Assembly: GCA_016234445.1 (NCBI GenBank) | Contig: JACRBT010000001.1 | Location: 62,001 to 126,000 of the forward strand | Length of the DNA stretch: 64,000 bases | Direction: 5' to 3' | From: Chloroflexota bacterium | GTDB lineage: Bacteria; Chloroflexota; Dehalococcoidia; Tepidiformales; Tepidiformaceae | In this document: positions 33,376-46,394 of the stretch, piece by piece | Numbering within the stretch: position 1 is the stretch's first letter | How the letters are laid out: each line of letters begins with the position of its first letter | The notes under the pieces: generated by a model | Told to the model about the DNA's origin: nothing | The model's database searches: none | What the model saw: the letters and a program-made list of their open reading frames with translations, nothing else | Translations under genes and position numbers: made by a program

Positions 33376-35076
33376 ATGTCCAAACCGAACCAACCATCGC
33401 TGTTTTCCCAGGAGGCGCTGGCGAGGCTTTCGCGGGCCGTGCACGGCTGGGAGGAAGGCCCGCTGGCGAAAACCCTCAGCCGCCAGCCGGAGCGCGAGGG
33501 TGAGTTCGCCACCAGCAGCCTGCCGGTCGAGCGGCTCTACACGCCGCTGGACATCGCGGACCTCGACTACGAGCGCGACCTTGGCTTCCCGGGCGAGTTC
33601 CCGTTCACCCGCGGCGTGCAGCCGACGATGTACCGTGGCCGCCACTGGACCATGCGCCAGTATGCGGGCTTCGGGACGGCGGAAGAGTCGAACCAGAAGT
33701 TCCGCTACCTGCTGGGCCAGGGACAGACAGGCATCTCCGTGGCCTTCGACCTCCCGAGCCAGCTGGGGTACGACTCCGACGACCCGATGGCGATCGCCGA
33801 AGTCGGCCAGGTCGGCGTCGCGATCGACTCGCTCTACGACATGGAGACGCTGTTCGAAGGCATCCCGATGGACCGGGTCTCGACCTCAATGACGATCAAC
33901 GCGCCGGCGGCGGTGATGCTGGCGATGTACGTGGCGGCGGCGGAGAAGCAGGGCGTTCCGGCGGACAAACTCAACGGGACAGTTCAGAACGACGTCCTCA
34001 AGGAGTACGTGGCGCGCGGGACGTACATCTTCCCCCCCGGGCCGAGCGTCCGGCTGGCGGCCGACATCATGGAGTACTGCGCCAGGAACGTGCCCCAGTG
34101 GAACACGATCAGCGTCAGCGGCTACCACATGCGGGACGCGGGTTCGACGGCGGCGCAGGAGATCGGGTTTACCTTCGCGAACGCCTGCGCCTACATCGAC
34201 GAGGCCCTTTCGCGGGGGCTGGCGATCGACGACTTCGCGCCCCGGATCAGCTGGATCTTCAACACCCACAACAACTTCTTCGAAGAGATTGCCAAGTACC
34301 GGACGCTGCGGCGGCTCTGGGCGCGGCTCCTCGTCGAGAAGTACGGGTCGAAGGACCCCCGTTCGCAGATGCTGCGGACCCACACCCAAACTGGCGGGAG
34401 CACGCTCGTGGCGCAGCAGCCCGAGAACAACATCGTCCGGGCGGCGGTGCAGTCGCTGGCGGCGGTGATCGGCGGCGTCCAGAGCATCGCCCTCAGCTGC
34501 TTCGACGAGGCGCTGGCGCTGCCCACGGACGACGCCCAGCGGATCGCCCTTCGCACGCAGCAGATCATCGCCCACGAAACGGGCGTCGCTGACACCGTCG
34601 ACCCGATGGCCGGGAGCTACTTCGTCGAGCATCTGACGAACGAACTCGAACGCCAGGCACGCGACTACATGCGCCAGATCGACGAGGTGGGCGGCGCCGT
34701 CAAGGCGATCGAAACCGGCTGGGTCCAGTCCCAGATCGCCGAGGCGAGCTGGCGCTACCAGCAGGACGTGGACGAAAAGCGCGAAGTCGTCGTCGGGGTC
34801 AACGAATACCGCGAAGGCGGCGAGCAACCGCCCGTCATCTTCACGGTGGACCGGCGCCTGGTGGACCACCAGCTGAAGCGGCTGGATCACCACCGCCGGG
34901 AGCGGGACCAGGCGGCGGTCGCGGCGTCGCTGGCGGCGCTGAAGACGGCCTGTGGCGGGAGCGCGAATCTCCTCCCGCCGATCCTCGACGCTGTCCGTGC
35001 CTACGCCACGCTCGGCGAGATCTGCGGCGCCATGCGGGAAGTCTTCGGCGAATACCAGCCCGTCACGGTGATCTAG
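33376..35076 (+). CDS. Methylmalonyl-CoA mutase large (catalytic) subunit
   Basis: 566 residues, the catalytic TIM-barrel domain alone, without the C-terminal cobalamin-binding domain, so a separate small subunit must exist outside the window. The substrate-determining residues of true methylmalonyl-CoA mutase appear retained: Tyr in WTMRQYAGFGT and Arg in EYVARGTYIFPP, where isobutyryl-CoA mutases have Phe and Gln. The catalytic His is in SGYHMRDAG. It rearranges methylmalonyl-CoA and succinyl-CoA using adenosylcobalamin. An epimerase-like gene is at 10 kb. GGAGG lies 6 nt before the ATG. No cobalamin riboswitch was seen upstream. Confidence 0.88.
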   Translation: MSKPNQPSLFSQEALARLSRAVHGWEEGPLAKTLSRQPEREGEFATSSLPVERLYTPLDIADLDYERDLGFPGEFPFTRGVQPTMYRGRHWTMRQYAGFGTAEESNQKFRYLLGQGQTGISVAFDLPSQLGYDSDDPMAIAEVGQVGVAIDSLYDMETLFEGIPMDRVSTSMTINAPAAVMLAMYVAAAEKQGVPADKLNGTVQNDVLKEYVARGTYIFPPGPSVRLAADIMEYCARNVPQWNTISVSGYHMRDAGSTAAQEIGFTFANACAYIDEALSRGLAIDDFAPRISWIFNTHNNFFEEIAKYRTLRRLWARLLVEKYGSKDPRSQMLRTHTQTGGSTLVAQQPENNIVRAAVQSLAAVIGGVQSIALSCFDEALALPTDDAQRIALRTQQIIAHETGVADTVDPMAGSYFVEHLTNELERQARDYMRQIDEVGGAVKAIETGWVQSQIAEASWRYQQDVDEKREVVVGVNEYREGGEQPPVIFTVDRRLVDHQLKRLDHHRRERDQAAVAASLAALKTACGGSANLLPPILDAVRAYATLGEICGAMREVFGEYQPVTVI

Positions 35077-35104
35077 CCGCCGCAATGGGGCCGCGGCAAC
35101 CCGG

Positions 35105-35314
35105 TCAATCCCTGGTGCGGCGCCGGGCAACTCGCCACAGGTGAGCCGGGGCAAGGTGCAGCCCGGCGGCTGCGGCAACAATCAGGCCGATGGCCATCCC
35201 GCTGAGCCATTGCTGGGCCGATACGACGGCGGCAATGCCAAGCGCGACGTGTGCCGCGGCGATAAGCACCCCGGCGACGACGGCGACGATTCCCCTGTGT
35301 CGTGAAGCAAACAT
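35105..35314 (-). CDS. Small two-TM membrane protein
   Basis: 69 residues with two hydrophobic segments (about 8-32 and 38-58) and a basic C-terminus ending in WRVARRRTRD. Both the ATG and GGAGGAT 6 nt upstream on the minus strand support it as a real gene. It has no recognised family. It lies between the mutase gene and the TetR operon on the same strand as the latter and may be part of the same read-through, but its 3' end is independent. Confidence 0.6.
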   Translation of the reverse strand: MFASRHRGIVAVVAGVLIAAAHVALGIAAVVSAQQWLSGMAIGLIVAAAAGLHLAPAHLWRVARRRTRD

Positions 35315-35361
35315 AGTATCCTCCAGTCCGCGGTTTCTCGGCGGACTGTGGGCGCCGCCGC

Positions 35362-35997
35362 TTACCCCCGGCCGGAAGTAAGCGTGCGGGCGATGAACGA
35401 AATTTCCGCGGTGGGCACGGCGGCCTCACCGGGCGTACCTCGAAGGCAGTGCTGGAACGCGTGATCGTGGCATACGCCCAGGATGATCGCTGCGGCCACC
35501 TGGCAGTCGGCGCCGGGACGAATCCGGCCGAGGGCCTGTTCCGCGAGCAGGTATTGGAACAGGGTCTCCCCACCGCGTGAAGCGGGATCGTCGGCAGCGA
35601 ACTCCTCGCGCAGCGAGCGGAGCAGTTCGGCATCGGAGAAGGTCGCGGCGAAGAGCGGGACGAGTTCGCCGAGGATCTCCATCGTCAGCGCGCCGAAGCG
35701 GAGGAGGTTGCCTTCAACGGTGCCCTCACCCGCGCGCGATGGCAAGTCGGCAAGCGGCGCGGCACGGGTGTGGGCGTGGCGGACGATGGACTGGGCGAGG
35801 AGCTGAACACGGTTGTCGAAGTAGTTGTAGATCGTGCCGGCGCCGACACCGGCCTCCTCCGCAACGGCGCGGGTAGAGGTTGCGGCCAGCCCGGCGTGGG
35901 AGACTACGCGTTGAGCCGCAGCGAGGATGTGATTTCGAACGGCCTCGAACCCGCCGCCGGTAGCGGCGCGAAGGTGGGCACTCAGCGGTCTAGACAT
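35362..35997 (-). CDS. TetR-family transcriptional regulator
   Basis: 211 residues. An N-terminal helix-turn-helix (about 20-65) contains ILAAAQRVVSHAGLAATSTRAV, EEAGVGAGTIYNYFDN, the TetR HTH signature. The rest is an all-helical ligand-binding dimerisation domain. The start at 35997 overlaps the stop of the ABC permease by 8 bp, so it is the last gene of a three-gene operon. A 42-bp palindrome overlapping the operon promoter is the probable operator, making the circuit autoregulatory. The inducing ligand is likely an exporter substrate. Confidence 0.93.
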   Translation of the reverse strand: MSRPLSAHLRAATGGGFEAVRNHILAAAQRVVSHAGLAATSTRAVAEEAGVGAGTIYNYFDNRVQLLAQSIVRHAHTRAAPLADLPSRAGEGTVEGNLLRFGALTMEILGELVPLFAATFSDAELLRSLREEFAADDPASRGGETLFQYLLAEQALGRIRPGADCQVAAAIILGVCHDHAFQHCLRGTPGEAAVPTAEISFIARTLTSGRG

Positions 35998-36730
35998 CGC
36001 GATAACGTTCCACAAGGAGGGCGCCCGCGACGATCGCCGCGCCATAGAGCGCAAGTACGACGGCCGCGGAAGGTTGGGTGAGCAAGTCGGCGTTGGGGTC
36101 GCGGACGAGGGCACGCCCGGCGGCTCCGGGGAGCCACTTGCCAAGCGCCGGAGCGAGTTGGAAGACAATCTGTTCGGCGACGAAGAGCCAGGCGAGGGCT
36201 CCGACGATCGCGCCGACCTGGTTGCGGAGAAGGCTGCCCAGGGCCGTTCCGAGAACGCCGAAGAGGATGGCATAGAGCACCGCGCCCCCGAGGATCGACC
36301 ACGCCATGGCCGAGTCGAGCGAGAAGGAGTAGCCCTTGAGTCCGTAGGTGTGACTGGCGACGGCGACGGCGACGCCGACGGAAAGGCCACCGAAGAGGAC
36401 GCCGGTGAGGGCGCCGGTGGCGAGCTTCGTGGCTATGACCCGCCATCGGGCCGGCGTGGTCAGGAAGGTGTCGATCGCCGTGCCCTGGCGGTGCTCCCCG
36501 GCTGAGATGATGATGCCGAGGATCAGGACGAAGATGGCCCCGCTGGCCGAGACGTGGAGGACAGTTCGGACCCCGCGTGCGGATTCGAGGTCCATGTTCG
36601 TATTGTCAGAAGCCACAATGACAGCGGCGGCGACCGCAACGGCGGTGATGACAAGGGTCGCGCCGAGAAGTGCCCAGGCTGTGCTGGTGGTCCTGAGTTT
36701 GAGGAATTCGGCCGCCAGGAGGCTTCTCAT
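35990..36730 (-). CDS. ABC-2-type transporter permease
   Basis: 246 residues with about six TM helices. It starts MRSLLAAEFLKLRTTSTAWALLG, the usual ABC-2 permease opening. IIISAGEHRQGTAIDTFLTTP near residue 85 is a characteristic cytoplasmic turn, and RRDQ-like elements are absent. It works with the ATPase encoded upstream, which it overlaps by 4 bp, and with the TetR gene downstream, which it overlaps by 8 bp. It may export a drug, lipid or peptide, or supply resistance. The substrate is unknown. Confidence 0.9.
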   Translation of the reverse strand: MRSLLAAEFLKLRTTSTAWALLGATLVITAVAVAAAVIVASDNTNMDLESARGVRTVLHVSASGAIFVLILGIIISAGEHRQGTAIDTFLTTPARWRVIATKLATGALTGVLFGGLSVGVAVAVASHTYGLKGYSFSLDSAMAWSILGGAVLYAILFGVLGTALGSLLRNQVGAIVGALAWLFVAEQIVFQLAPALGKWLPGAAGRALVRDPNADLLTQPSAAVVLALYGAAIVAGALLVERYRDV

Positions 36731-37620
36731 CGCGCTGCCCCAGCGGCTGTGAGTTCGAGAAACATTCCCTCGAGCTGCCCGGCGGGTGCCTGCGCGGATA
36801 GCTCCGAGAGGACGAGCCCCGCCCGCGCAGCCGCCTGCCCTACTTCAATGGACGATGCGCCGTGGATGACGAGGCGATCGCCCCGGGAGGGTTCCACGCG
36901 CCAGCCCTGCTGCCTGGCGAGCTCGGTCAGCCGGACCGCTTCGGGCGTGGCCACCGTGACGCCTGTGCCCTGGCCACGCAGCTCGGCCGCCGTCTCTTCC
37001 CGGACCACGCGGCCGCGGTTGATGATGACGAAGCGGTCGGCGACGAGTTCAACCTCGGCCAGGACATGGCTCGAAAACAAAACGGTCCGGCCCTGTGCGG
37101 CCCAGCCCGTGAGGAGCTGGCGGAGCCACGCCATGCCAACCGGATCCAGCCCGTTGGCAGGCTCGTCAAGGACGAGGACGCCGGGGTCGCCGAGCAGTGC
37201 GCCAGCCAGCCTCAGTCGCTGCTTCATACCCTGCGAGTAGCCGCCAGCCTTACGGTCCGCCGCCGCCGTCAGATCAACCAGCTCCAGCATTTCGTCGACG
37301 CGGCGCTCCGGGAGCCCGGCGGCGCGAGCGATCACGTTGAGATGGTTCCGGCCGGACCGGCCGGGATGGATGCCGATGGCATCGAGAACGGCGCCGATTG
37401 CCTGGCGAGGCGACGGGAGTTCGCCGTAGCTGACGCCGTTGATGAGCGCGCTGCCGCTGTCTGGCCGGGCGAGTCCGAGGAGTACACGGAGGGTGGTTGT
37501 CTTGCCCGCTCCATTTGGCCCGAGGAAGCCGGTGACCGCGCCCGGTGGAGCGGAGAAGCTTACGTCGTCGACTGCCCGGGTTGGCCCGTAGGTCTTGGTG
37601 AGGTTCCGAAATTCGATCAT
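36727..37620 (-). CDS. ABC-2 transporter ATP-binding protein
   Basis: 297 residues. Walker A is GPNGAGKTTT near residue 37. The signature motif SQGMKQRLRLAGALLGDP near 128 and Walker B VLVLDEPANGLD near 148 are intact. The switch His lies in FSSHVLAEVE near 182. A C-terminal regulatory part of about 80 residues follows. It powers the ABC-2 permease encoded next, with a 4-bp overlap. Transcription starts from a TTGACA promoter inside a palindromic operator immediately upstream. Confidence 0.93.
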   Translation of the reverse strand: MIEFRNLTKTYGPTRAVDDVSFSAPPGAVTGFLGPNGAGKTTTLRVLLGLARPDSGSALINGVSYGELPSPRQAIGAVLDAIGIHPGRSGRNHLNVIARAAGLPERRVDEMLELVDLTAAADRKAGGYSQGMKQRLRLAGALLGDPGVLVLDEPANGLDPVGMAWLRQLLTGWAAQGRTVLFSSHVLAEVELVADRFVIINRGRVVREETAAELRGQGTGVTVATPEAVRLTELARQQGWRVEPSRGDRLVIHGASSIEVGQAAARAGLVLSELSAQAPAGQLEGMFLELTAAGAAR

Positions 37621-37636
37621 CGCGCGGTTCCTGATA

Positions 37637-37678
37637 TGAGCGGATGCTCAGAATGAACTCATTCTGAACGCGCGCTCA
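37637..37678 (-). promoter_or_regulatory. Palindromic operator of TetR-ABC operon
   Basis: A perfect 9-2-9 inverted repeat (37648-37667, TCAGAATGA and TCATTCTGA) is nested in an outer pair TGAGCG (37637-37642) and CGCTCA (37673-37678) with the same centre, so the full palindrome spans 42 bp. It covers the -10 region of the operon promoter and lies 17 bp before the ATPase start codon. That position suits binding of the TetR protein encoded in the operon, possibly as two dimers. Confidence 0.7.
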
Positions 37679-37689
37679 CATCCTGTCAA
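37661..37689 (-). promoter_or_regulatory. Promoter of TetR-ABC operon
   Basis: On the minus strand TTGACA (37684-37689) and CAGAAT (37661-37666) are separated by exactly 17 bp. The -35 is consensus. The -10 lies inside the palindromic operator, which would block polymerase when the repressor is bound. Confidence 0.65.
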
Positions 37690-37888
37690 GCCCTCGGCTT
37701 TAGGCACTCCACGGCTGCCGCCTTGCTCCCGCGCACCCGGGGGGCGCCCGGGATGTCGGGGCCCTATCCGCGCCGCCCGGCTTCGGGAGATCTGGTTGGT
37801 TCCGTATGCACCAAGCGCGCAGGGCGGGTATAGTCCGCCGGGCGGGGAGGCGGCGAGGACCGTCACCGCAGCTCTGGGAGGACTGCTC

Positions 37889-38512
37889 GTGGCCAAGAAA
37901 GTTGTTGCCATCTCACGCGCCATGGGGGCGAGCGGCGAAGAAGTCGCGCAGGCTGTGGCGAAGGACCTCGGCTACCGCTACGTCGACGACGAGATCATCT
38001 CGCGGGCCGCGCAGGCTGCCGGGGTCGCGCCGGACGTGGTCGGCGAAGTGGAGCACACCCGGCCGCTGATGGCCCGCATCCTGGAGTCGATGGCGGTCTC
38101 TTCGGCGGGAGTCGGGGGGATGGGCGAGTACGCGGTCATGTCGGCGACACCGCCGAGCAAGGGTTTCGAACAGCTTATCCAGCAGGTGATCCGCCAGGTC
38201 GCCGAAGAGGGCAACGTTGTCCTCGTGGCCCACGGGGCGAGCATCCCCCTCGCCGGGATGAACGGGCTCCTCCGGGTGCTGGTCACTGCCTCCCCTGACG
38301 TTCGGGCGGGCCGCCTGGACGGATCGACGCAGATGGGCGAGTCGAAGGCGAAGAAGGCCATCGACGACTCGGACAAGCAGCGCGCCGACTTCCTGAAGCG
38401 CTTCTACAACGTGAAGCAGGAACTCCCCACCCACTACGACCTCGTCCTGAACATGGACACAGTCTCGGTCGGCGACGCGGTCAAGACAGTGGTGGCCCTG
38501 GCGAAGGGGTAG
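37889..38512 (+). CDS. Cytidylate kinase-like family protein
   Basis: 207 residues. The start VAKKVVAISRAMGASGEEVA and the adjacent LGYRYVDDEIISRAA match cytidylate kinase-like (Cytidylate_kin2) proteins. The normal kinase P-loop GxxxxGK(S/T) is replaced by MGASGEEVA, so a canonical Walker A is absent, as is usual for this branch. These proteins are of uncertain reaction. The GTG start at 37889 has GGGAGG 7 nt before it; TATAGT at 37830-37835 could serve as a distant -10. Function beyond nucleotide binding is unknown. Confidence 0.75.
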   Translation: MAKKVVAISRAMGASGEEVAQAVAKDLGYRYVDDEIISRAAQAAGVAPDVVGEVEHTRPLMARILESMAVSSAGVGGMGEYAVMSATPPSKGFEQLIQQVIRQVAEEGNVVLVAHGASIPLAGMNGLLRVLVTASPDVRAGRLDGSTQMGESKAKKAIDDSDKQRADFLKRFYNVKQELPTHYDLVLNMDTVSVGDAVKTVVALAKG

Positions 38513-38542
38513 ACCCGAAGCCCCCCGCCGGCAGAGAGGCCG

Positions 38543-38548
38543 TAGGAT
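38543..38548 (+). promoter_or_regulatory. -10 box TAGGAT, apparent leaderless start
   Basis: TAGGAT ends exactly 6 nt before the GTG at 38555, with GCGCCG between and no ribosome site. The same geometry is seen at 24956, 51697 and 62523. Confidence 0.5.
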
Positions 38549-38554
38549 GCGCCG

Positions 38555-39316
38555 GTGAAGATCCTCGTCCTCGGAAACAGCGACACCGCGGGCAGCCATG
38601 TGAGCGGGACCCCGTGGCCGCACGTCGCCGCGAGCCTTCTCGCCCAGCGGGGCGTGACGGTGACCGGTATCGACGATGTCGGATTCTCCGCGGTGGGCGC
38701 GCGGGCCGCGGCGTTCGCCGAACGCAAGGTCCGGGAGTTGGAACCCGATCTCGTCATCCTTCCCGTCGGCACGTTCGCCTACACGGTCGGGTTCGTCTGG
38801 GTGCAGGTCCGGCACCGATTTGGAGTACGGGCCGCGTCGCTCTACCAAAAGCTGGAACGCGGATTCGAACGGCGCACGGGCGCCGCGGGCGGCGGCTCAC
38901 GGAGCAAAGCTAGGCTCTCGGTCAATCGCGCCGGGCGAAAGCTCGTTCGCACCGTGGTCGGTTCCCGCCCGCTCACGACGCAGGCGGAGCTGACCGAGAG
39001 TTACCGGCAGATCCTTGGCGCCATCGCGCGGGTCGAGGCGGTCGATGTCCTCATTGTCGACTACCCGGCCGAAACCGGGCCCCTGGCCAAGAAGAAGCTC
39101 GCGACCCCGGCCCGGCGGGCGCAGTTCCTGGCAGACATCCACGAGGCGGCCGCGTCGCACCGCTACCGGATGCTTGTCGCCGATGACGTGTTCGGGCGGT
39201 TTCCGGAAGGCAGCCTGAGCACCCCGGATGGTTTCCATCTCAACGACGCAGGACACCAGGTGCTCGGTGAGGCTGTGGCCGCCGTGATAATGCAGGGCGG
39301 GCCGGAAGCGCACTGA
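38555..39316 (+). CDS. SGNH/GDSL-family hydrolase
   Basis: 253 residues. The block I Ser lies in LVLGNSDTAG near residue 9, a variant of the GDSL motif. The C-terminal block V DGFHLNDAGHQVLG near 227 supplies Asp and His of the triad. The central region includes a possible helical insert (about 95-130) rich in Arg and Lys. There is no signal peptide, so the ester or acyl substrate is intracellular or the protein is exported otherwise. Its start is GTG, apparently leaderless. It converges with the epimerase gene at 39392. Confidence 0.8.
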   Translation: MKILVLGNSDTAGSHVSGTPWPHVAASLLAQRGVTVTGIDDVGFSAVGARAAAFAERKVRELEPDLVILPVGTFAYTVGFVWVQVRHRFGVRAASLYQKLERGFERRTGAAGGGSRSKARLSVNRAGRKLVRTVVGSRPLTTQAELTESYRQILGAIARVEAVDVLIVDYPAETGPLAKKKLATPARRAQFLADIHEAAASHRYRMLVADDVFGRFPEGSLSTPDGFHLNDAGHQVLGEAVAAVIMQGGPEAH

Positions 39317-39391
39317 CCGGCCGCGTCGACTCAAGCGCCGCGCCGACCGGTGGCTCTCACATCTTCGGCGGCGCCCCACAGCATCCCGGAG

Positions 39392-40369
39392 TTACCCCTC
39401 GCGAAGCTTCGCGAGGACCTCGTCGTCCTGCGTGTAGTCGATCCTGTACCAGTCCCGCCCTTCTTCCTGGAACCACTGGTAGGAGATGGCCAGTCCCTCC
39501 CGGAGCCCGATGATCGGCTCCCAGCCCAGTTCGCGCCTCGCCTTGTCGACGGAGAACACGGCCCCGCCGCGATACCATTCGGCCCAGTGCAGGATCGGTG
39601 GGCGAAGCGTCCGTGCGTAGTCCCGGGGCACGAACACGGGCTGCGGCTCCACGCCGACGGCTTCCCCCATGAGCGCCAGGTACCCCCCGATGCTGGCGAA
39701 GTCGCGCCCGGCGACGTTGTAGATCTCGCCCGCCGACCGGTCCGTCTCGATGACCGCGCACATCGCGCGGGCGACGTCGTCGACGTGGACGAGGTGGACG
39801 AACGGCATGCCGTCGCCGGGTATGAGGACGGGGCGCCGGGCTTCCAACCGGGCGAAAAGGCCGTGCTCTCGCGGCAGTGGGCTGTGAGGGCCGAGCGTGT
39901 GCCCGACGCGAAGGCTGGTGGCCGGGAAGCCGTTGGTCTCGAACTCCCGGAGAAGAAGGCGTTCGCACTTCACCTTCCCGGCCCCGTAGGCCCGCGACGG
40001 GTTCACCGCTTCATCGGCGGAAACCGGCGAGTCTTCCCGCACCGGTTGGAGGTGCGACCAGAGGTAGACCGCGGTGGAACTGGTGAACACGAAGTGCCTG
40101 ACGCGCCCGCGGAACAGCTCGACGAGCGGTTCCACATCCGTGGTCTGGTAGGAGGTGTTGTCGAAGACGGCGTCGAACCCGTCGCGCAACGGGCCGAGGG
40201 TTGCTTCGATCACGCCGGGCTGGCGGCGGTCGCCGTCGAGCCGGCGCACCCCGGCGGGGAGTTCGGTCGGGTGACTGTTGAACACGGTGACGTTATGTCC
40301 GAGCCGTGCCAGTTCGGCCACCAGGTGACGGCCGATGTAGCGGTTACCTCCGAGGACAAGGACGCGCAT
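39392..40369 (-). CDS. NAD-dependent epimerase/dehydratase (SDR-extended)
   Basis: 325 residues. The N-terminal nucleotide-binding loop is GGNRYIG near residues 8-14. The active-site YxxxK is in RAYGAGKVKCE near residue 131, and DGFDAVFDNTSYQTTDVEPL near 66 is a typical substrate-side segment. It resembles the UDP-sugar epimerase/dehydratase and CSP41-like proteins. GGAGGGAACA lies directly before the ATG. The substrate is likely a nucleotide sugar, but some of this branch have non-enzymatic, RNA-binding roles. Its neighbours give no pathway clue. Confidence 0.85.
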   Translation of the reverse strand: MRVLVLGGNRYIGRHLVAELARLGHNVTVFNSHPTELPAGVRRLDGDRRQPGVIEATLGPLRDGFDAVFDNTSYQTTDVEPLVELFRGRVRHFVFTSSTAVYLWSHLQPVREDSPVSADEAVNPSRAYGAGKVKCERLLLREFETNGFPATSLRVGHTLGPHSPLPREHGLFARLEARRPVLIPGDGMPFVHLVHVDDVARAMCAVIETDRSAGEIYNVAGRDFASIGGYLALMGEAVGVEPQPVFVPRDYARTLRPPILHWAEWYRGGAVFSVDKARRELGWEPIIGLREGLAISYQWFQEEGRDWYRIDYTQDDEVLAKLREG

Positions 40370-40406
40370 TGTTCCCTCCGTGACGCCCGGCGGCGGGCGT
40401 GGTAGC

Positions 40407-41993
40407 TCAGAGCGGGTGATATTCGAGCGTCAGGTGGTAGGCGACCTCCGGCTTGAGCAGGGTGCGGACGTAGCAGCCGCGTTCGGCCGGCACAAGCAGC
40501 GCCCGCACTTCCGCTTCCGTTGCCTCGCTCCAGACTTCGAGCGTCACGAAGATCTCCTTGATCTGGCCGCGTTCGTTCGCCGCGGCCCTCGCATCCACCC
40601 GGCCGAGTGGGACCTTCCGCCGCCGCCCGGCTGCCTTGAACGAGATGGTGAGGCAACTCACCAGCCCGGCGAGGAAGGCGTCGACCGGGGTTGGGCCGAA
40701 GTCGGCTCCTCCATCCGCCGGGGGCTCGTCGAGGTCGAAGACGTGCCCGCCGGCTGCCTGGACGCGGGTGTGGTAGCCCGTCCCGGGGGCGGAACTCGTC
40801 ACCTCGCGCGGCCGCAACGGCGGGGCAATCGACGGCTCGGAAACATCCGCCTCGCGGGGGGCGAGCGCCTCGATCGCCTCCTTGAGGTCGCGCGTGAAGC
40901 CCGCCGCCTGGACGCCGTCGGCGACCCGGTGGTCATAGGCGACGCTGAGCCCGAGGGTGGGCCGCGCGACGACGCTGCCATTCCGCACCACCGCCCGCTC
41001 CTCAACGGAGCCGACGAAGACAAGCACCGCCTCGCCGAGGTTGATGACCGGGGTGCCGGTCCGAATGCCGTACATGCCGAGGTTGGAGACCGTCAGGCTC
41101 GCCTGCCCCATCTCGTCGGGCTTCAGCCCGCCGCCCTCCGCCGCCTGGACAAGCCGCCGCGTTTCCTCTGCCATGCGGTCGATCGCAAGGGAGCTGGCAC
41201 CGCGAATGACCGGGACAAGCAGCCCGGCCGGGGTGCTCACCGCAAAGCCAACGTCGACGCGGTCGCGGAGCACCAGCGAGTCGCCGTCGATGAAAGCGTT
41301 GAGCTCCGGGTGGGCTGTCATCACCCCGGCCACGAGGTGGAGGAGGATGTCGTTGAGCGTCGCCTCCACGTTTCGCGCCTTGAGCCGGTCGCGTTCGGCG
41401 AGGAGCCCGGTCGCATCCACGTCCACCATCTGGACGATGTGGGGGATGGTCTGCCATGCCTCCTGGGTCCGCCGCGCCATGGTCCGCCTGATCCCGGAGA
41501 GTTTGCGTCGCTCCCTGACGGTGCGCAGGCCCGTGCCCGCGCGTTCCACGTCCTCGACCGAAACGACGCCGTCTTCGGAGCTGGCCCGGACCGTCGCGAG
41601 GTCGATGCCCCGTTCCGCCGCGAGCCGCCGGGCCTTCGGGGACGCGAGGGGGCGGGAGCCGGCTGGCACCGGAGCCGATCCGGGGGAGACTTCGGCTGTT
41701 GTGGTGGCTGGCGCCGGCTTGCGCGGCGCCGACACGGCCGCCGCGGCGTCCCCGATCGCGGCTATCGCCGTCTCGACAGCGGCCTCTTCGCCCTGGGCTA
41801 CCAGGATGTGCAGCGCCCCCGTGGCCGGCGATTCGAGTTCGAAGGTGGCCTTGTCCGTCTCGACCGTGACGATGACCTCGCCCTCTTCGACGTGGCCGCC
41901 TTCGTCCACATGCCAGCGGACGATCGTCGCCGCCTCCATGGACTGCCCCAGCTTCGGGAGGAACATGACGCCGCCCGAGCGATCAGCCGACAA
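40407..41993 (-). CDS. pdhC: 2-Oxoacid dehydrogenase E2 (lipoyl acyltransferase) fused to OsmC domain
   Basis: 528 residues. A lipoyl domain (about 10-85) has lipoyl Lys48 in VETDKATFE. A subunit-binding region (about 112-150, ASPKARRLAAERGID) and an acyltransferase domain (about 160-385) follow, with the active-site signature DHRVADG. Residues from about 390 to 528 are an OsmC/Ohr-like domain: GTGYHTRVQAAGGHVF, PTPVDAFLAGLVSCLTISF with one Cys, and ERGCYVRTL with the second. Both cysteines of the peroxidase pair are kept. The gene overlaps E1beta by 11 bp and closes the E1alpha-E1beta-E2 operon. No E3 gene is in the window. The fusion is unusual for an E2. Confidence 0.92.
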   Translation of the reverse strand: MSADRSGGVMFLPKLGQSMEAATIVRWHVDEGGHVEEGEVIVTVETDKATFELESPATGALHILVAQGEEAAVETAIAAIGDAAAAVSAPRKPAPATTTAEVSPGSAPVPAGSRPLASPKARRLAAERGIDLATVRASSEDGVVSVEDVERAGTGLRTVRERRKLSGIRRTMARRTQEAWQTIPHIVQMVDVDATGLLAERDRLKARNVEATLNDILLHLVAGVMTAHPELNAFIDGDSLVLRDRVDVGFAVSTPAGLLVPVIRGASSLAIDRMAEETRRLVQAAEGGGLKPDEMGQASLTVSNLGMYGIRTGTPVINLGEAVLVFVGSVEERAVVRNGSVVARPTLGLSVAYDHRVADGVQAAGFTRDLKEAIEALAPREADVSEPSIAPPLRPREVTSSAPGTGYHTRVQAAGGHVFDLDEPPADGGADFGPTPVDAFLAGLVSCLTISFKAAGRRRKVPLGRVDARAAANERGQIKEIFVTLEVWSEATEAEVRALLVPAERGCYVRTLLKPEVAYHLTLEYHPL

Positions 41994-42948
41994 GCGCCTT
42001 CACCTCTCGATAGATCTCGTCTTCCGTGGGCACGATCCGGTCGACGAAGTGGCGGGCGGTGGCGATGGGGACGTCGGGGATCGCGAGCCGCCGCATCGGC
42101 TTGTCGAGGTACGGGAAGGCGTGCTCCATCAGCGTCGCCGCGATCTCGGCGCCAACGCCGAGGGTCCGGTAGCCCTCTTCGACGACGACGCAGGCGCCGG
42201 TCTTCTTGACCGACTCGATGATCGTCTCGCGGTCGAAGGGATTCAGGGTACGCGGGTCGATGACCTCGGCTTCGATGCCGTCAGCGGCGAGGCGGTCGGC
42301 GGCCGCGAGGACGCGCCGGAGCATGTTCTGCCATGCGACGATGGTGACGGCATCCCCCTCGCGACGCACGACGGCCTTGCCGAAGGGGACGACGTACTCC
42401 CCATCGGGGACCTCGCCGCGGGTGCCGTAGAGTGACTTGTGTTCGAAGAAGATCACGGGGTTGTCGAGCCGGATCGCCTGCTTGAGGAGGCCCTTGGCAT
42501 CGGCGGGAGTGGAGGGAACGGCGCAGAGCAAACCGGGCGAGTGCATGATGTAGGCTTCGGGGCAGGCCGAATGCTCGGGGCCGAAGCCCGCGCCCCCGGA
42601 TGGCGCCCTGACCACGAGCGGCAAGGTGTAGGCGCCGCCGTGCATGAAGCGCCACATGCCGGCCTTGAGGAAAACCTCATCGCCGGCCGTGAAGATGAAG
42701 TCCGCGAACTGGAGTTCGGCCACCGGCCGGAGGCCCATCATCGCGGCGCCGACGGCCGAACCGACGATGAGCGGCTCACTGATCGGGGTGTTGAAGACGC
42801 GGTCGCCTCCGTAGCGCTCGCGGAGGCCGCCGGTGGCGCCGAAGATGCCGATGGCCACGTCCTCGCCGTAGAGGATGACGCGGTCGTCGCGCTCCATCTC
42901 CTCGACGAGGGCCTGGTTGATGGCCTGTGAGTAGGTGATTACCGCCAC
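41983..42948 (-). CDS. pdhB: 2-Oxoacid dehydrogenase E1 beta subunit
   Basis: 321 residues, the transketolase-like beta subunit that with E1alpha forms the thiamine-dependent E1. It begins VITYSQAINQALVEEMERDDRV and carries GEDVAIGIFGATGGL near residue 26, the region near TPP. The C-terminal transketolase domain includes VVEEGYRTLGVGAEIA near 253. It resembles pyruvate, acetoin and branched-chain E1beta; the sequence alone does not fix the acid. It follows E1alpha by 25 nt and overlaps the E2 gene by 11 bp. Confidence 0.93.
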   Translation of the reverse strand: MAVITYSQAINQALVEEMERDDRVILYGEDVAIGIFGATGGLRERYGGDRVFNTPISEPLIVGSAVGAAMMGLRPVAELQFADFIFTAGDEVFLKAGMWRFMHGGAYTLPLVVRAPSGGAGFGPEHSACPEAYIMHSPGLLCAVPSTPADAKGLLKQAIRLDNPVIFFEHKSLYGTRGEVPDGEYVVPFGKAVVRREGDAVTIVAWQNMLRRVLAAADRLAADGIEAEVIDPRTLNPFDRETIIESVKKTGACVVVEEGYRTLGVGAEIAATLMEHAFPYLDKPMRRLAIPDVPIATARHFVDRIVPTEDEIYREVKALVG

Positions 42949-42973
42949 GGTGAGGCGCTCCCTTCTGGCGAGG

Positions 42974-43918
42974 TCAGGCGTAGAGGTCCTGGAGGGCGAG
43001 GGCGGGGTCGAGCAGCGGCGCCGCTGCCACGACGGCGACAGCGCGTTCGACTTCCGCCTGGGCTTCGGCGTCGATCGTCTCCAGGTCGGCCCTTTCCAGG
43101 ATGCCGGCTTCGATCAGCGCCTCGGCGAAGCCCGGCAATGGGTCCTTCTGGGCCGCGAGGTCCCGATCGGGCCGGTAGAGCTGAGGGTCGCCGATGTAGT
43201 GTCCGGCCAGCCGCACGACCTTCGCTTCGATGAGGGTCGGGCCGTCCCCGTTCCGGGCGCGGGCGACCGCCGTGGTCATGGCGTCGAAGACGGCGAAAGC
43301 GTCGTTGCCGTCCACCACCACCCCCGGGATGCCGTAGCCGTGGGCCCGCGAAGCGATGTCCGGGACCGACGTCGACTCCGATGTGGGCACCGACACCGCC
43401 CAGCCGTTGTTTTCGCAGAAGAAGATGGCGGGCAGCCGTTGGACGGCGGAGAAGTTGAGGGACTCATGGAAGGTGCCGCGGTTCGAGCCGCCGTCGCCGA
43501 AGAAGTGGGCGACGACCTGGCCCTTGCCGAAGCGCTTCAGGGCCATCGCCACCCCGGCGCAGACCACCAGCCCGCCGCCGAGGGTGCCGCTTTCGCCGAG
43601 GACGCCGTGGGGGACGTCGACGACGTGCATGACGCCGCCCTTCCCCCGGTTCGTCCCGCCTTCCTTGTTGGCGATGTCGGCGAGGATGGCGGTGAGGGGA
43701 GTGCCGCGGGCGATCATGTAGGCGACGCCGCGGTGGCTGTAGAGCACCTTGTCGTCGGGCCCGAGGGCGGCGAGCGCGGCCGTCTGGCAGACTTCGTGCC
43801 CGGCGCCGGGATGAAGCGTTGGCGGGATTTCGCCGGCCATGCCCATGTGGATGATGCGGTCTTCGAACTTGCGCGACAGGACCGCATAGCGATAGGCATC
43901 CCGCAGCAGCTGAGTCAT
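42974..43918 (-). CDS. pdhA: 2-Oxoacid (acetoin/pyruvate) dehydrogenase E1 alpha subunit
   Basis: 314 residues. The TPP-binding motif is visible as GDGGSNRGTFHESLNFSAV near residues 146-164, with the closing N of the motif in CENNGWAVS near 175. The segment VLYSHRGVAYMIARG near 60 and GTNRGKGGVMHVV near 90 are typical of the short acetoin-dehydrogenase-like E1alpha proteins. It decarboxylates a 2-oxoacid or acetoin and passes the acyl group to the lipoyl of E2. It is the first gene of the operon. The substrate (pyruvate, acetoin or branched) is uncertain. Confidence 0.92.
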   Translation of the reverse strand: MTQLLRDAYRYAVLSRKFEDRIIHMGMAGEIPPTLHPGAGHEVCQTAALAALGPDDKVLYSHRGVAYMIARGTPLTAILADIANKEGGTNRGKGGVMHVVDVPHGVLGESGTLGGGLVVCAGVAMALKRFGKGQVVAHFFGDGGSNRGTFHESLNFSAVQRLPAIFFCENNGWAVSVPTSESTSVPDIASRAHGYGIPGVVVDGNDAFAVFDAMTTAVARARNGDGPTLIEAKVVRLAGHYIGDPQLYRPDRDLAAQKDPLPGFAEALIEAGILERADLETIDAEAQAEVERAVAVVAAAPLLDPALALQDLYA

Positions 43919-43970
43919 AATCCCTCCTTCACCAAGAACCGTGGCGCTGACCCGGCCTCCAGTTCGCGCG

Positions 43971-44046
43971 GTTCGGGAAGCGCCGTTGGAGGTCGGGAAG
44001 GCCTTCGCGCGAAGCGGGCGTCGTGCGCCCGCCGGGATTCGAACCC
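43971..44046. repeat. Direct repeat copy A (degenerate tRNA 3' end plus flank)
   Basis: 76 bp matching 45230-45305 at 62 of 76 positions without gaps. The identity runs through the end of the tRNA T-arm into the tRNA's 3' flank and stops abruptly at 44046, inside the T-arm. This is the layout left when a tRNA 3' end is duplicated by integration, or by a local duplication. Confidence 0.7.
44021..44046 (-). pseudogene. Degenerate tRNA-Ile2 3' end
   Basis: On the minus strand this reads the T-loop TTCGAAT and T-stem followed by an acceptor half CGGGCGC, discriminator A and CGA instead of CCA. The 5' three quarters of a tRNA are absent: no complementary acceptor strand, D-arm or anticodon arm can be drawn upstream. 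It corresponds to the last 26 nt of the intact tRNA at 45280-45355. Confidence 0.65.
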
Positions 44047-44105
44047 GCCGCAGTTTAGCACCGATGGCCCGGGGGACGGGACGCGATGCTCGGCGACGGG
44101 CTGCA

Positions 44106-45086
44106 CTACAACGACTCGGGCGTCGAGGCGGTGTTCACAGACATCTGCGACACGTACACGGAAGACCTGACCAGCGTGAGGCGGAACGGCGGAGATGCTC
44201 TACCGTCCTCGTGGTTCCCCCAGCAGGCCGCGGTGCCGTTCGTCCTGACCCCGCAGGTGTGCTCGTCGCCCGCGCTCACGCTGATGAACTGGCCTAACGG
44301 CGGCGTCGCCTGACCGTCGTCGTTGTTCCCCCAACAGACGACGGTGCCGTCTGTCTTCACGCCGCAGGTGTGGGCGTCGCCCGCACTCACGCTGGTGAAC
44401 TCGCCCGCTGGCGGCCAAGTAATGTGGTGGTAGGGCCCCCAGCAGGAAACGCCGCCGTCCGCGCGCACGCCGCAAGAGTGATACCCGCCCGCGCTCACGT
44501 CGGTGAACTGACCCGGAGGGGGCGACGCCCGGCCGTCCACGTTGTACCCCCAGCAAGCGAGGGTGCCGTCCGTCTTCACCGCGCAGGCGTGAAGCCAGCC
44601 TGCGCTCACAGAGGTGAACAGCCCCGCTGGCGGCGACGCCTGCGCGTGCTGGTTTTCGCCCCAACAAGCGAGGTGTCCGTCAGTCCTCACGGCACAGGCG
44701 TAGCCCTCGCTCGCGCTCACACTCATGAACTCGCCTGCAGGCGCCCGAGTACCCAAGTTCTGCCCCCAGCAGGCCAGGGCCCCGTCACCTCTCACCCCGC
44801 AGGTGTACCCCACGTCACTATCCCACTCCGCGCCTCGCTTCGCTGCGCTCACGCTGATGAACTGGCCTTCAGGCGGCGTTGCCTGGCCCGAGTGGTTGTT
44901 CCCCCAGCAGGCCACCGTGCCGTCTGTTCTTAACCCGCAGCTGTGACTGAAACCCGCACTCACCGAAGTCATCCGCGTGGTCCTGCCGGAACCGCAGTTG
45001 ATGGAAACCACCACTACGAAGGCGGCGATGATTAGAGCGAAACCGGCTCGAGTTGTGCGGTGGTGGTGACGAGGCAGCGGATTCAC
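44106..45086 (-). CDS. RCC1-repeat beta-propeller protein, secreted/anchored
   Basis: 326 residues. A basic N-terminus and hydrophobic helix (AGFALIIAAFVVVVSINCGSG) give an anchor or signal; Cys after SIN is an imperfect lipobox. Seven tandem repeats of about 37-43 residues follow, each with the pattern SVSAG-HSCGV-TDGTVACWGNN-G-A-PP-GQF, so a seven-bladed RCC1-like propeller is likely. Each blade has one CxxCW-type Cys pair. The GTG at 45086 was chosen for GGAGG directly upstream; in-frame codons extend further without a ribosome site. It lies between two direct repeats derived from a tRNA end and has no functional neighbours, suggesting acquisition. Role unknown. Confidence 0.8.
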   Translation of the reverse strand: MNPLPRHHHRTTRAGFALIIAAFVVVVSINCGSGRTTRMTSVSAGFSHSCGLRTDGTVACWGNNHSGQATPPEGQFISVSAAKRGAEWDSDVGYTCGVRGDGALACWGQNLGTRAPAGEFMSVSASEGYACAVRTDGHLACWGENQHAQASPPAGLFTSVSAGWLHACAVKTDGTLACWGYNVDGRASPPPGQFTDVSAGGYHSCGVRADGGVSCWGPYHHITWPPAGEFTSVSAGDAHTCGVKTDGTVVCWGNNDDGQATPPLGQFISVSAGDEHTCGVRTNGTAACWGNHEDGRASPPFRLTLVRSSVYVSQMSVNTASTPESL

Positions 45087-45229
45087 GACGCCTCCGGCTG
45101 CGTGATGTATGTCATCACGGTCGCGGTTGGGGCAGGGCCGTCCAAGGGCCGGAAGGCGCAAGTTCGTTGGCCCTAAGACCCGTTGCAGCGACGGGAACCA
45201 ACCGCTGCGCACGAGCCGGTGTGGCTGCA

Positions 45230-45305
45230 ATTCGGCAGCGGCCGGTCGAGGTCGAGAGGGCCTTCGAGCGAAGCTGGAGTGGTGGGCCCGCCGGGATTCG
45301 AACCC
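45230..45305. repeat. Direct repeat copy B (tRNA-Ile2 3' end plus flank)
   Basis: The intact-side copy of the 76-bp repeat. Bases 45280-45305 are the 3' end of the tRNA gene and 45230-45279 its downstream flank. The partner copy is at 43971-44046, so 1,183 bp lie between the copies, essentially the RCC1 gene. Confidence 0.7.
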
Positions 45306-45355
45306 AGGACCAACCGGTTATGAGCCGGCCGCTCTCACCGCTGAGCTACGGGCCC
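45280..45355 (-). tRNA. tRNA-Ile2(CAT), CCA encoded
   Basis: 76 nt with perfect 7-bp acceptor GGGCCCG/CGGGCCC, D-arm GCTC/GAGC, anticodon loop CTCATAA (anticodon CAT), and T-arm CTGGG/CCCGG with TTCGAAT. The absence of the initiator C1-A72 mismatch excludes fMet. Similarity of the D and anticodon arms to the ileX type (AGCGG..AGAGC..CTCATAA..TTGGTC) favours the isoleucine tRNA that is modified at C34 to read ATA, although elongator Met remains possible. CCA is encoded. Confidence 0.93.
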
Positions 45356-45510: not shown

Positions 45511-45978
45511 CTACCAGCTGCGACCGCCGCGATCGCCGCGGTCACGGCCACCGCCGCCGCCGTAGCCACCGCGGTCACCGCCACGGCCGCCACCGCCGCC
45601 GCCATAGCCACCGCCGCCACGGCCGCCGCCGCCACCACCACCGTAGCCACCGCCGCCACCGCCGCCGTAGCCGCCACCACCACCGACAGAGCGGGGCTGG
45701 GGCTGGAAGCAGTCGCTGCAGTAGACGGGGCGGTCACCGCGGGGCTCGAAGGGCACCTTGGCGTCCTTGCCGCACGAAGCGCAGGTCACGCTGAAAAGCT
45801 CGCGCTGGGGCCGGCCAGCTCCGCCGCCACCGTCGGTCTTGCGGGCCCGGCGGCAGTTGGGGCACCGACGAGGTTCGTTCGTGAACCCCTTCGATGCATG
45901 GAATTCCTGCTCGCCCGCGGTGAACGTGAACGCCGCGCCGCAGTCCGAGCAAGTGATGGTTTTGTCGGTGAAAGGCAC
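45511..45978 (-). CDS. CxxC zinc-ribbon protein with Gly-rich tail
   Basis: 155 residues. Two zinc-ribbon-like units occupy the first 90 residues: TITCSDCGAAFTFTAGEQEF with RRCPNCRRAR, then VTCASCGKDAKVPF with VYCSDC. This is the layout of the CxxC-x17-KCxxC-type small proteins. The remainder is Gly-rich with GGYGGGG and RGG-type repeats, suggesting RNA or nucleic-acid binding. The GTG at 45978 has GGAGGT 6 nt upstream; an ATG 14 codons earlier is weaker. It is monocistronic between the tRNA and the aconitase region. Its function is not established. Confidence 0.8.
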   Translation of the reverse strand: MPFTDKTITCSDCGAAFTFTAGEQEFHASKGFTNEPRRCPNCRRARKTDGGGGAGRPQRELFSVTCASCGKDAKVPFEPRGDRPVYCSDCFQPQPRSVGGGGGYGGGGGGGYGGGGGGGRGGGGYGGGGGGRGGDRGGYGGGGGRDRGDRGGRSW

Positions 45979-46020
45979 CCGACGACCTCCAAACAGATTT
46001 TCCGGATTCCCTACGGTCAT

Positions 46021-46394
46021 CGAGCGCCAGGTGAAAGAAGCCTCTCCGTGAGGCCGATGGTTCGCGGGTACCATAAACACAATACCACCTTTTTCATGGC
46101 GCTGACCACCACAAATTCCGGCCCGGCTGCTATACTGACGCTGGTTCGTCCCACGAAACGCCTGCCCCGGGCCCAACGGTCCCCTCCCTCGGGGAAGTCG
46201 CGGGAGCACGGTTGAGACGAGTCCCGCCCGGCGAATGATCGCCCGGGAAAGGGCCCAAGTACCGCCACGGAATGTGGAAGGAGGCTTGGGAAGTGGGAAC
46301 CAGTCCGCCCTTCACCCCTGCATGACCCGCCCGTAGCGCCGCGGTGCGCCCGCGCGCGGCGCGTGGACCCTCCAGCGAAAGGATGGACCCCCTC
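46021..46394 (+). promoter_or_regulatory. Structured leader/promoter region before aconitase
   Basis: 374 bp without a credible gene. TATACT at 46131-46136 fits a -10. The 3' part can fold into successive helices: 46145-46157, 46180-46195, 46200-46227, a hairpin at 46230-46243, and CCCAAG (46254-46259) with CTTGGG (46285-46290) enclosing CCAC-GGAAT-GTGG (46265-46277). No cobalamin, SAM, TPP, glycine, RNase P or SRP core sequence was recognised. High GC makes such stems common by chance. Confidence 0.4.

Follow-up and report, generated by a model that had tools for sequence, protein, structure and literature searches.

In a Dehalococcoidia genome, the interval that separates an intact tRNA gene from a displaced copy of its 3' end is probably the eroded remnant of an element that was inserted by site-specific recombination at the 3' end of tRNA-Ile2 and later lost its integrase. 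The window, which is the whole stretch of 64,000 nucleotides analysed here (contig C10, positions 62001-126000), belongs to a genome of 3.54 Mb in 20 contigs (G000). ARAGORN places the intact tRNA, with anticodon CAU and an encoded CCA end, at 45280..45355 on the minus strand. Judged from its sequence the gene most likely encodes tRNA-Ile2 and not tRNA-Met, as it has the C4-G69 and C5-G68 pairs and the UUGGUC variable loop of E. coli Ile2. It is 100% identical in four relatives (G001, G015, G017 and G023).

The original prediction described a 76-bp direct repeat, and realignment returned exactly that. The tRNA-side, attL-like copy (45230..45305, minus strand) and the displaced, attR-like copy (43971..44046, minus strand), located by alignment and BLAST, have the same orientation and are identical at 62 of 76 positions with no gaps. 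As had also been claimed, the repeat is made up of the final 26 nt of the tRNA, 24 of which are identical in the two copies, and a 50-nt flank (38 of 50 identical). The displaced copy holds a 3' tRNA fragment that lies downstream of the tRNA on the same strand and begins at the T arm. The two copies do not differ in the initial 20 nt of the repeat, which cover the T arm and the beginning of the acceptor strand, and all 14 mismatches fall after nt 20 (P = 0.008 under random placement); this clean core is explained in part by the constraint on the intact tRNA. The likeness between the copies ends sharply on both sides. Upstream of the displaced copy nothing resembles the first 50 nt of the tRNA (69% of shuffles score equally high), and past the flank of 50 nt the copies show no likeness to each other either (68% of shuffles as high). 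The repeat is real, exact and beyond chance. BLAST against the whole genome finds two copies only, the displaced one with E = 1.5e-15, and a 27-nt pattern from the flank, allowing up to 3 mismatches, finds the same two sites in the genome while the reversed control finds 0. The repeat was not found in viral contigs, and a search across 393 genomes of the class gave two weak partial matches only. The common dispersed element against which the original prediction had warned was thus not encountered.

A single intact ORF with seven RCC1_2 domain matches, on the strand of the tRNA (44106..45086, minus strand), lies in the 1,183 bp that separate the copies. A GTG at 45086 is the most likely start, and an earlier start is possible. 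The product has a hydrophobic N-terminal stretch that is a putative secretion signal, so that the lone propeller gene with its own signal is present as predicted. Only a short stretch (44047..44105) separates the displaced copy from the RCC1 stop codon. The GC content of the gene, 0.667, is like that of its surroundings. Relatives of the protein occur in 9 of the 41 genomes examined and are also widespread in other bacteria, and the best named relative is from a Dehalococcoidia genome. Matches were found in 47 plasmids at up to 38.5%. A viral origin of the gene as cargo was rejected, as the pattern search of viral contigs gave nothing and only seven phages had matches, of 25-28%. It had been proposed that RCC1 genes be sought inside tRNA-inserted elements elsewhere. 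Such an association did not appear: in 12 places where the neighbourhoods of RCC1 relatives were inspected, a tRNA gene lies within 6 kb in one only (tRNA-Pro, about 4.7 kb away), so the RCC1 gene does not habitually travel with tRNA elements. Paralogues of the gene that are 58-68% identical lie on contig C20 of the same genome (108681-110901), one match having an internal stop codon. A possible SGNH/GDSL hydrolase fragment on the plus strand at 44059-44172 (DGLHYNDSG) had no Pfam match and weak matches only, and is regarded as chance.

The tRNA was used as a query in all 38 genomes of the family. The relatives compared belong to other genera, as a single draft genome stands for the own genus. 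On the 5' side of the tRNA, a zinc-finger (zf_Tbcl) protein gene, located in the window at 45511..46209 (minus strand), and aconitase are conserved across the family. On the 3' side the neighbouring genes vary from genus to genus. In G013 and in G017 and G023, which together represent two genera, 77-373 nt separate the tRNA from a methylmalonyl-CoA mutase gene downstream, and the two genes that come after the mutase in G017 and G023 also come after it in the window. In the window, gene-order comparison places the mutase (33376..35076, plus strand) 10.2 kb from the tRNA, past the RCC1 gene and nine more genes. These nine occupy 35077..43970, a further insert relative to G013, G017 and G023, and encode TetR, ABC permease, ABC ATPase, cytidylate-kinase-like, GDSL hydrolase, epimerase, E2, E1 beta and E1 alpha proteins. 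The dehydrogenase E1 alpha gene (42974..43918, minus strand; domain and homologue search) is the first past the displaced copy, at a distance of about 53 nt. The best E1 alpha homologue among 26 relatives is about 41-42% identical and homologues of the epimerase, located elsewhere, are up to 76% identical, which suggests that the added DNA is of mixed origin. The E2 acyltransferase (40407-41993) has lipoyl, E3-binding and catalytic domains fused to a C-terminal OsmC domain. The conserved upstream side, the variable downstream side and the displacement of the mutase by 10.2 kb mark the site as a place of accretion, of which the RCC1 interval seems to be the innermost, eroded piece. No third copy of the tRNA end was found near the mutase or on the far side of the added DNA.

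For 26 relatives the sequence downstream of the tRNA extends over 1.7 kb or more, and among these a displaced tRNA fragment comparable to that of the window was found in G006 and G041 only; G053 was treated as a special case, and matches in G012, G044 and G046 were discounted as they correspond to a tRNA-Pro gene. Relatives that do not have the RCC1 gene at the site have one tRNA and no second copy, and in these other genera the two repeats never occur together without the RCC1 gene. The original prediction had suggested that the junction in such genomes would close to one tRNA and one flank. The first half of this expectation held, in that a single tRNA is present. As to the second, the 50-nt flank downstream of the tRNA is unrecognisable in every relative examined, all of which are from other genera. 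The empty site is for this reason seen as the absence of the second copy and not base by base, and since the flank is conserved in no relative the native and incoming flanks are indistinguishable.

The tRNA-Ile2 gene is a recurrent insertion point of integrative elements in this Dehalococcoidia family. In G006 the 3' end of the tRNA from position 29 plus 2 nt, 50 nt in all, is repeated exactly 8.2 kb downstream (L071, C27 5470-13730), and in G041 an exact 49-nt duplication of the tRNA-Ile2 3' end lies 7.1 kb downstream (L108, C124 3171-10355). In both elements a tyrosine integrase lies close to the distal copy, on its inner side, and the two integrases are 88% identical to each other. One gene in these 7-8 kb elements is weakly similar to phage tail proteins; relatives of the G006 integrase were not found in viral contigs. 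The contig of a third genome (G042) breaks off inside the same tRNA fragment. In G005 a different tyrosine integrase gene lies 57 nt downstream of tRNA-Ile2, and a displaced tRNA fragment was not detected within 16.9 kb. G053 has downstream copies of the terminal 7-8 nt of tRNA-Ile2 together with as much as about 95 nt of flank (L126, C37 2559-2639, 10813-10893 and 14068-14148). Their identity varies with the stretch compared (62-94%), and they are perhaps another trace of repeated events at this tRNA. The G006 and G041 elements resemble the window in the tRNA gene, the side and the duplicated 3' end. They differ from it in having an intact tyrosine integrase, a length of 7-8 kb, exact repeats of 49-50 nt starting in the anticodon stem and no RCC1 gene. 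The shared block in the window consists of 26 nt of tRNA and 50 nt of diverged flank, whereas in G006 and G041 it consists of 48 nt of tRNA and 1-2 nt. As the window repeat starts in the T arm and the sister repeats in the anticodon stem, a different integrase would have acted in the window.

The absence of an integrase noted earlier was borne out: no PF00589 match is present in the interval or anywhere on contig C10, and no serine recombinase was found among the genes scanned at 33-46 kb. The genome has seven PF00589 matches, on C2, C8, C9, C14, C16 and C20. Two are tyrosine integrase genes about 150 nt upstream of tRNA-SeC (C16:107787, L143) and tRNA-Ser (C20:306898, L144). These two integrase sites served as internal controls, and no displaced tRNA fragment was found in stretches of 11-20 kb on either side of them. 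On C9 (142130-142625, L146 and L147) an integrase match is split over two adjoining pieces and appears to be a decayed gene.

The T arm is one of the usual crossover regions in tRNA-targeted integration. An element would have entered the 3' end of tRNA-Ile2 by site-specific recombination, with a crossover within the T arm and acceptor region that may correspond to the identical 20-nt core. A fresh 3' end brought by the incoming DNA would have kept the tRNA gene whole, and the old 3' end with its flank would have come to lie 1.26 kb away on the downstream side. Loss of the integrase and of the other parts of the element would have followed, or the piece may never have had an integrase and may have been mobilised in trans, and the RCC1 gene would remain as cargo. 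We infer the recombinase, the order of events and the loss of the integrase from this arrangement. Insertion is favoured by a unique repeat, by a 3' fragment that is downstream, on the same strand and begins at the T arm, by the integrase-bearing elements that occupy the same tRNA in sister species, by the absence of the second copy from relatives, and by the gene order at the site, which is conserved upstream of the tRNA and variable downstream, with the mutase 10.2 kb away here and adjacent in G013, G017 and G023. It is weakened by the missing integrase between the copies and on C10, an interval far below the usual island size, a shared block unlike that of the sister elements, the scarcity of tRNA genes near RCC1 relatives elsewhere and a GC content that matches the surroundings. 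The claim of integrase-mediated insertion is partly supported, by the anatomy, orientation and side of the repeat and by the sister elements, and this support does not extend to the responsible enzyme or an ancestral closed junction. The event had been called old on the basis of the 18% divergence. This dating was not upheld, as attP and attB may have differed initially and the divergence provides no clock; it may reflect age or such an initial difference. It is quite unlikely that the piece, about 1.26 kb long, is a cassette with no integrase and a single gene, for a secreted RCC1 propeller flanked by att-like repeats, and that tRNA-Ile2 integrases mobilise it in trans.

A possible but doubtful alternative is that illegitimate recombination not involving an integrase, for example break repair near the tRNA, copied the tRNA 3' end and flank as the RCC1 gene was moved or inserted. 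A repeat that runs 50 nt past the tRNA and is 18% diverged, the lack of a remaining integrase and the rearranged downstream side of the tRNA in most genera would all suit such an event. However, the break falls at the T arm, the copy is on the right side and in the right orientation, and the integrase-bearing elements of the sister species use the same tRNA. There is little likelihood that the whole tRNA-Ile2 gene was once duplicated in tandem and that the second copy afterwards lost its 5' half or had it replaced; the copy does retain, in unchanged orientation, the 3' end of the tRNA with its flank, but upstream of it there is no trace of a tRNA 5' half, and two adjacent tRNA-Ile2 genes occur in no relative. 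Least probable is a dispersed or mobile repeat with a tRNA-like end that is present twice here by chance. The G053 copies do show that repeats of similar shape exist in the family, but the counts in this genome, in viral contigs and in the 393 genomes of the class all but rule this reading out.

Insertion by site-specific recombination can be compared with known systems. In the Islander collection (PMC4383910) the fragment starts in the T-stem region in 1836 of 3919 islands and in the anticodon region in 2083, so the two classes are about equally common. Like Islander tRNA/tmRNA islands, the window has an intact tRNA and a fragment of the same tRNA on one replicon, and the fragment is a downstream 3' fragment in the same orientation that starts in the T-stem region and reaches the CCA end of the tRNA with 24 of 26 nt identical. 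It differs in that no integrase lies within or overlaps the interval (PF00589 matches are on other contigs), the 1,183 bp between the copies fall short of the 2-200 kb length range and the fragment is damaged in its acceptor part. The feature is also absent from relatives, which are of other genera and have an uninterrupted tRNA and no fragment. Because it departs from the strict Islander definition in integrase and length, the feature is filed as a remnant with the anatomy of a tRNA-targeted island and not as a full member. In Dehalococcoides, islands are arranged in tandem at the 3' end of the ssrA RNA gene with a 20-bp direct repeat, and some of them have no integration genes of their own; it has been proposed that these are cis-mobilizable or fixed remnants (PMC3146451). 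Within the class to which this genome belongs, such islands set a precedent for accretion next to the 3' end of an RNA gene by pieces that have no integrase. However, their target is tmRNA and the recombinase is of the serine type, while the feature described here has a tRNA-Ile2 target and no recombinase left near it.

The type of event is well known and the understanding of tRNA-targeted integration is unchanged. For this Dehalococcoidia family, tRNA-Ile2 is added to the insertion points that are used. The accretion region at tRNA-Ile2 displays stages from an integrase-bearing element to a scar, and the PDH-like operon and the RCC1 gene of this genome are thereby placed in a variable region.
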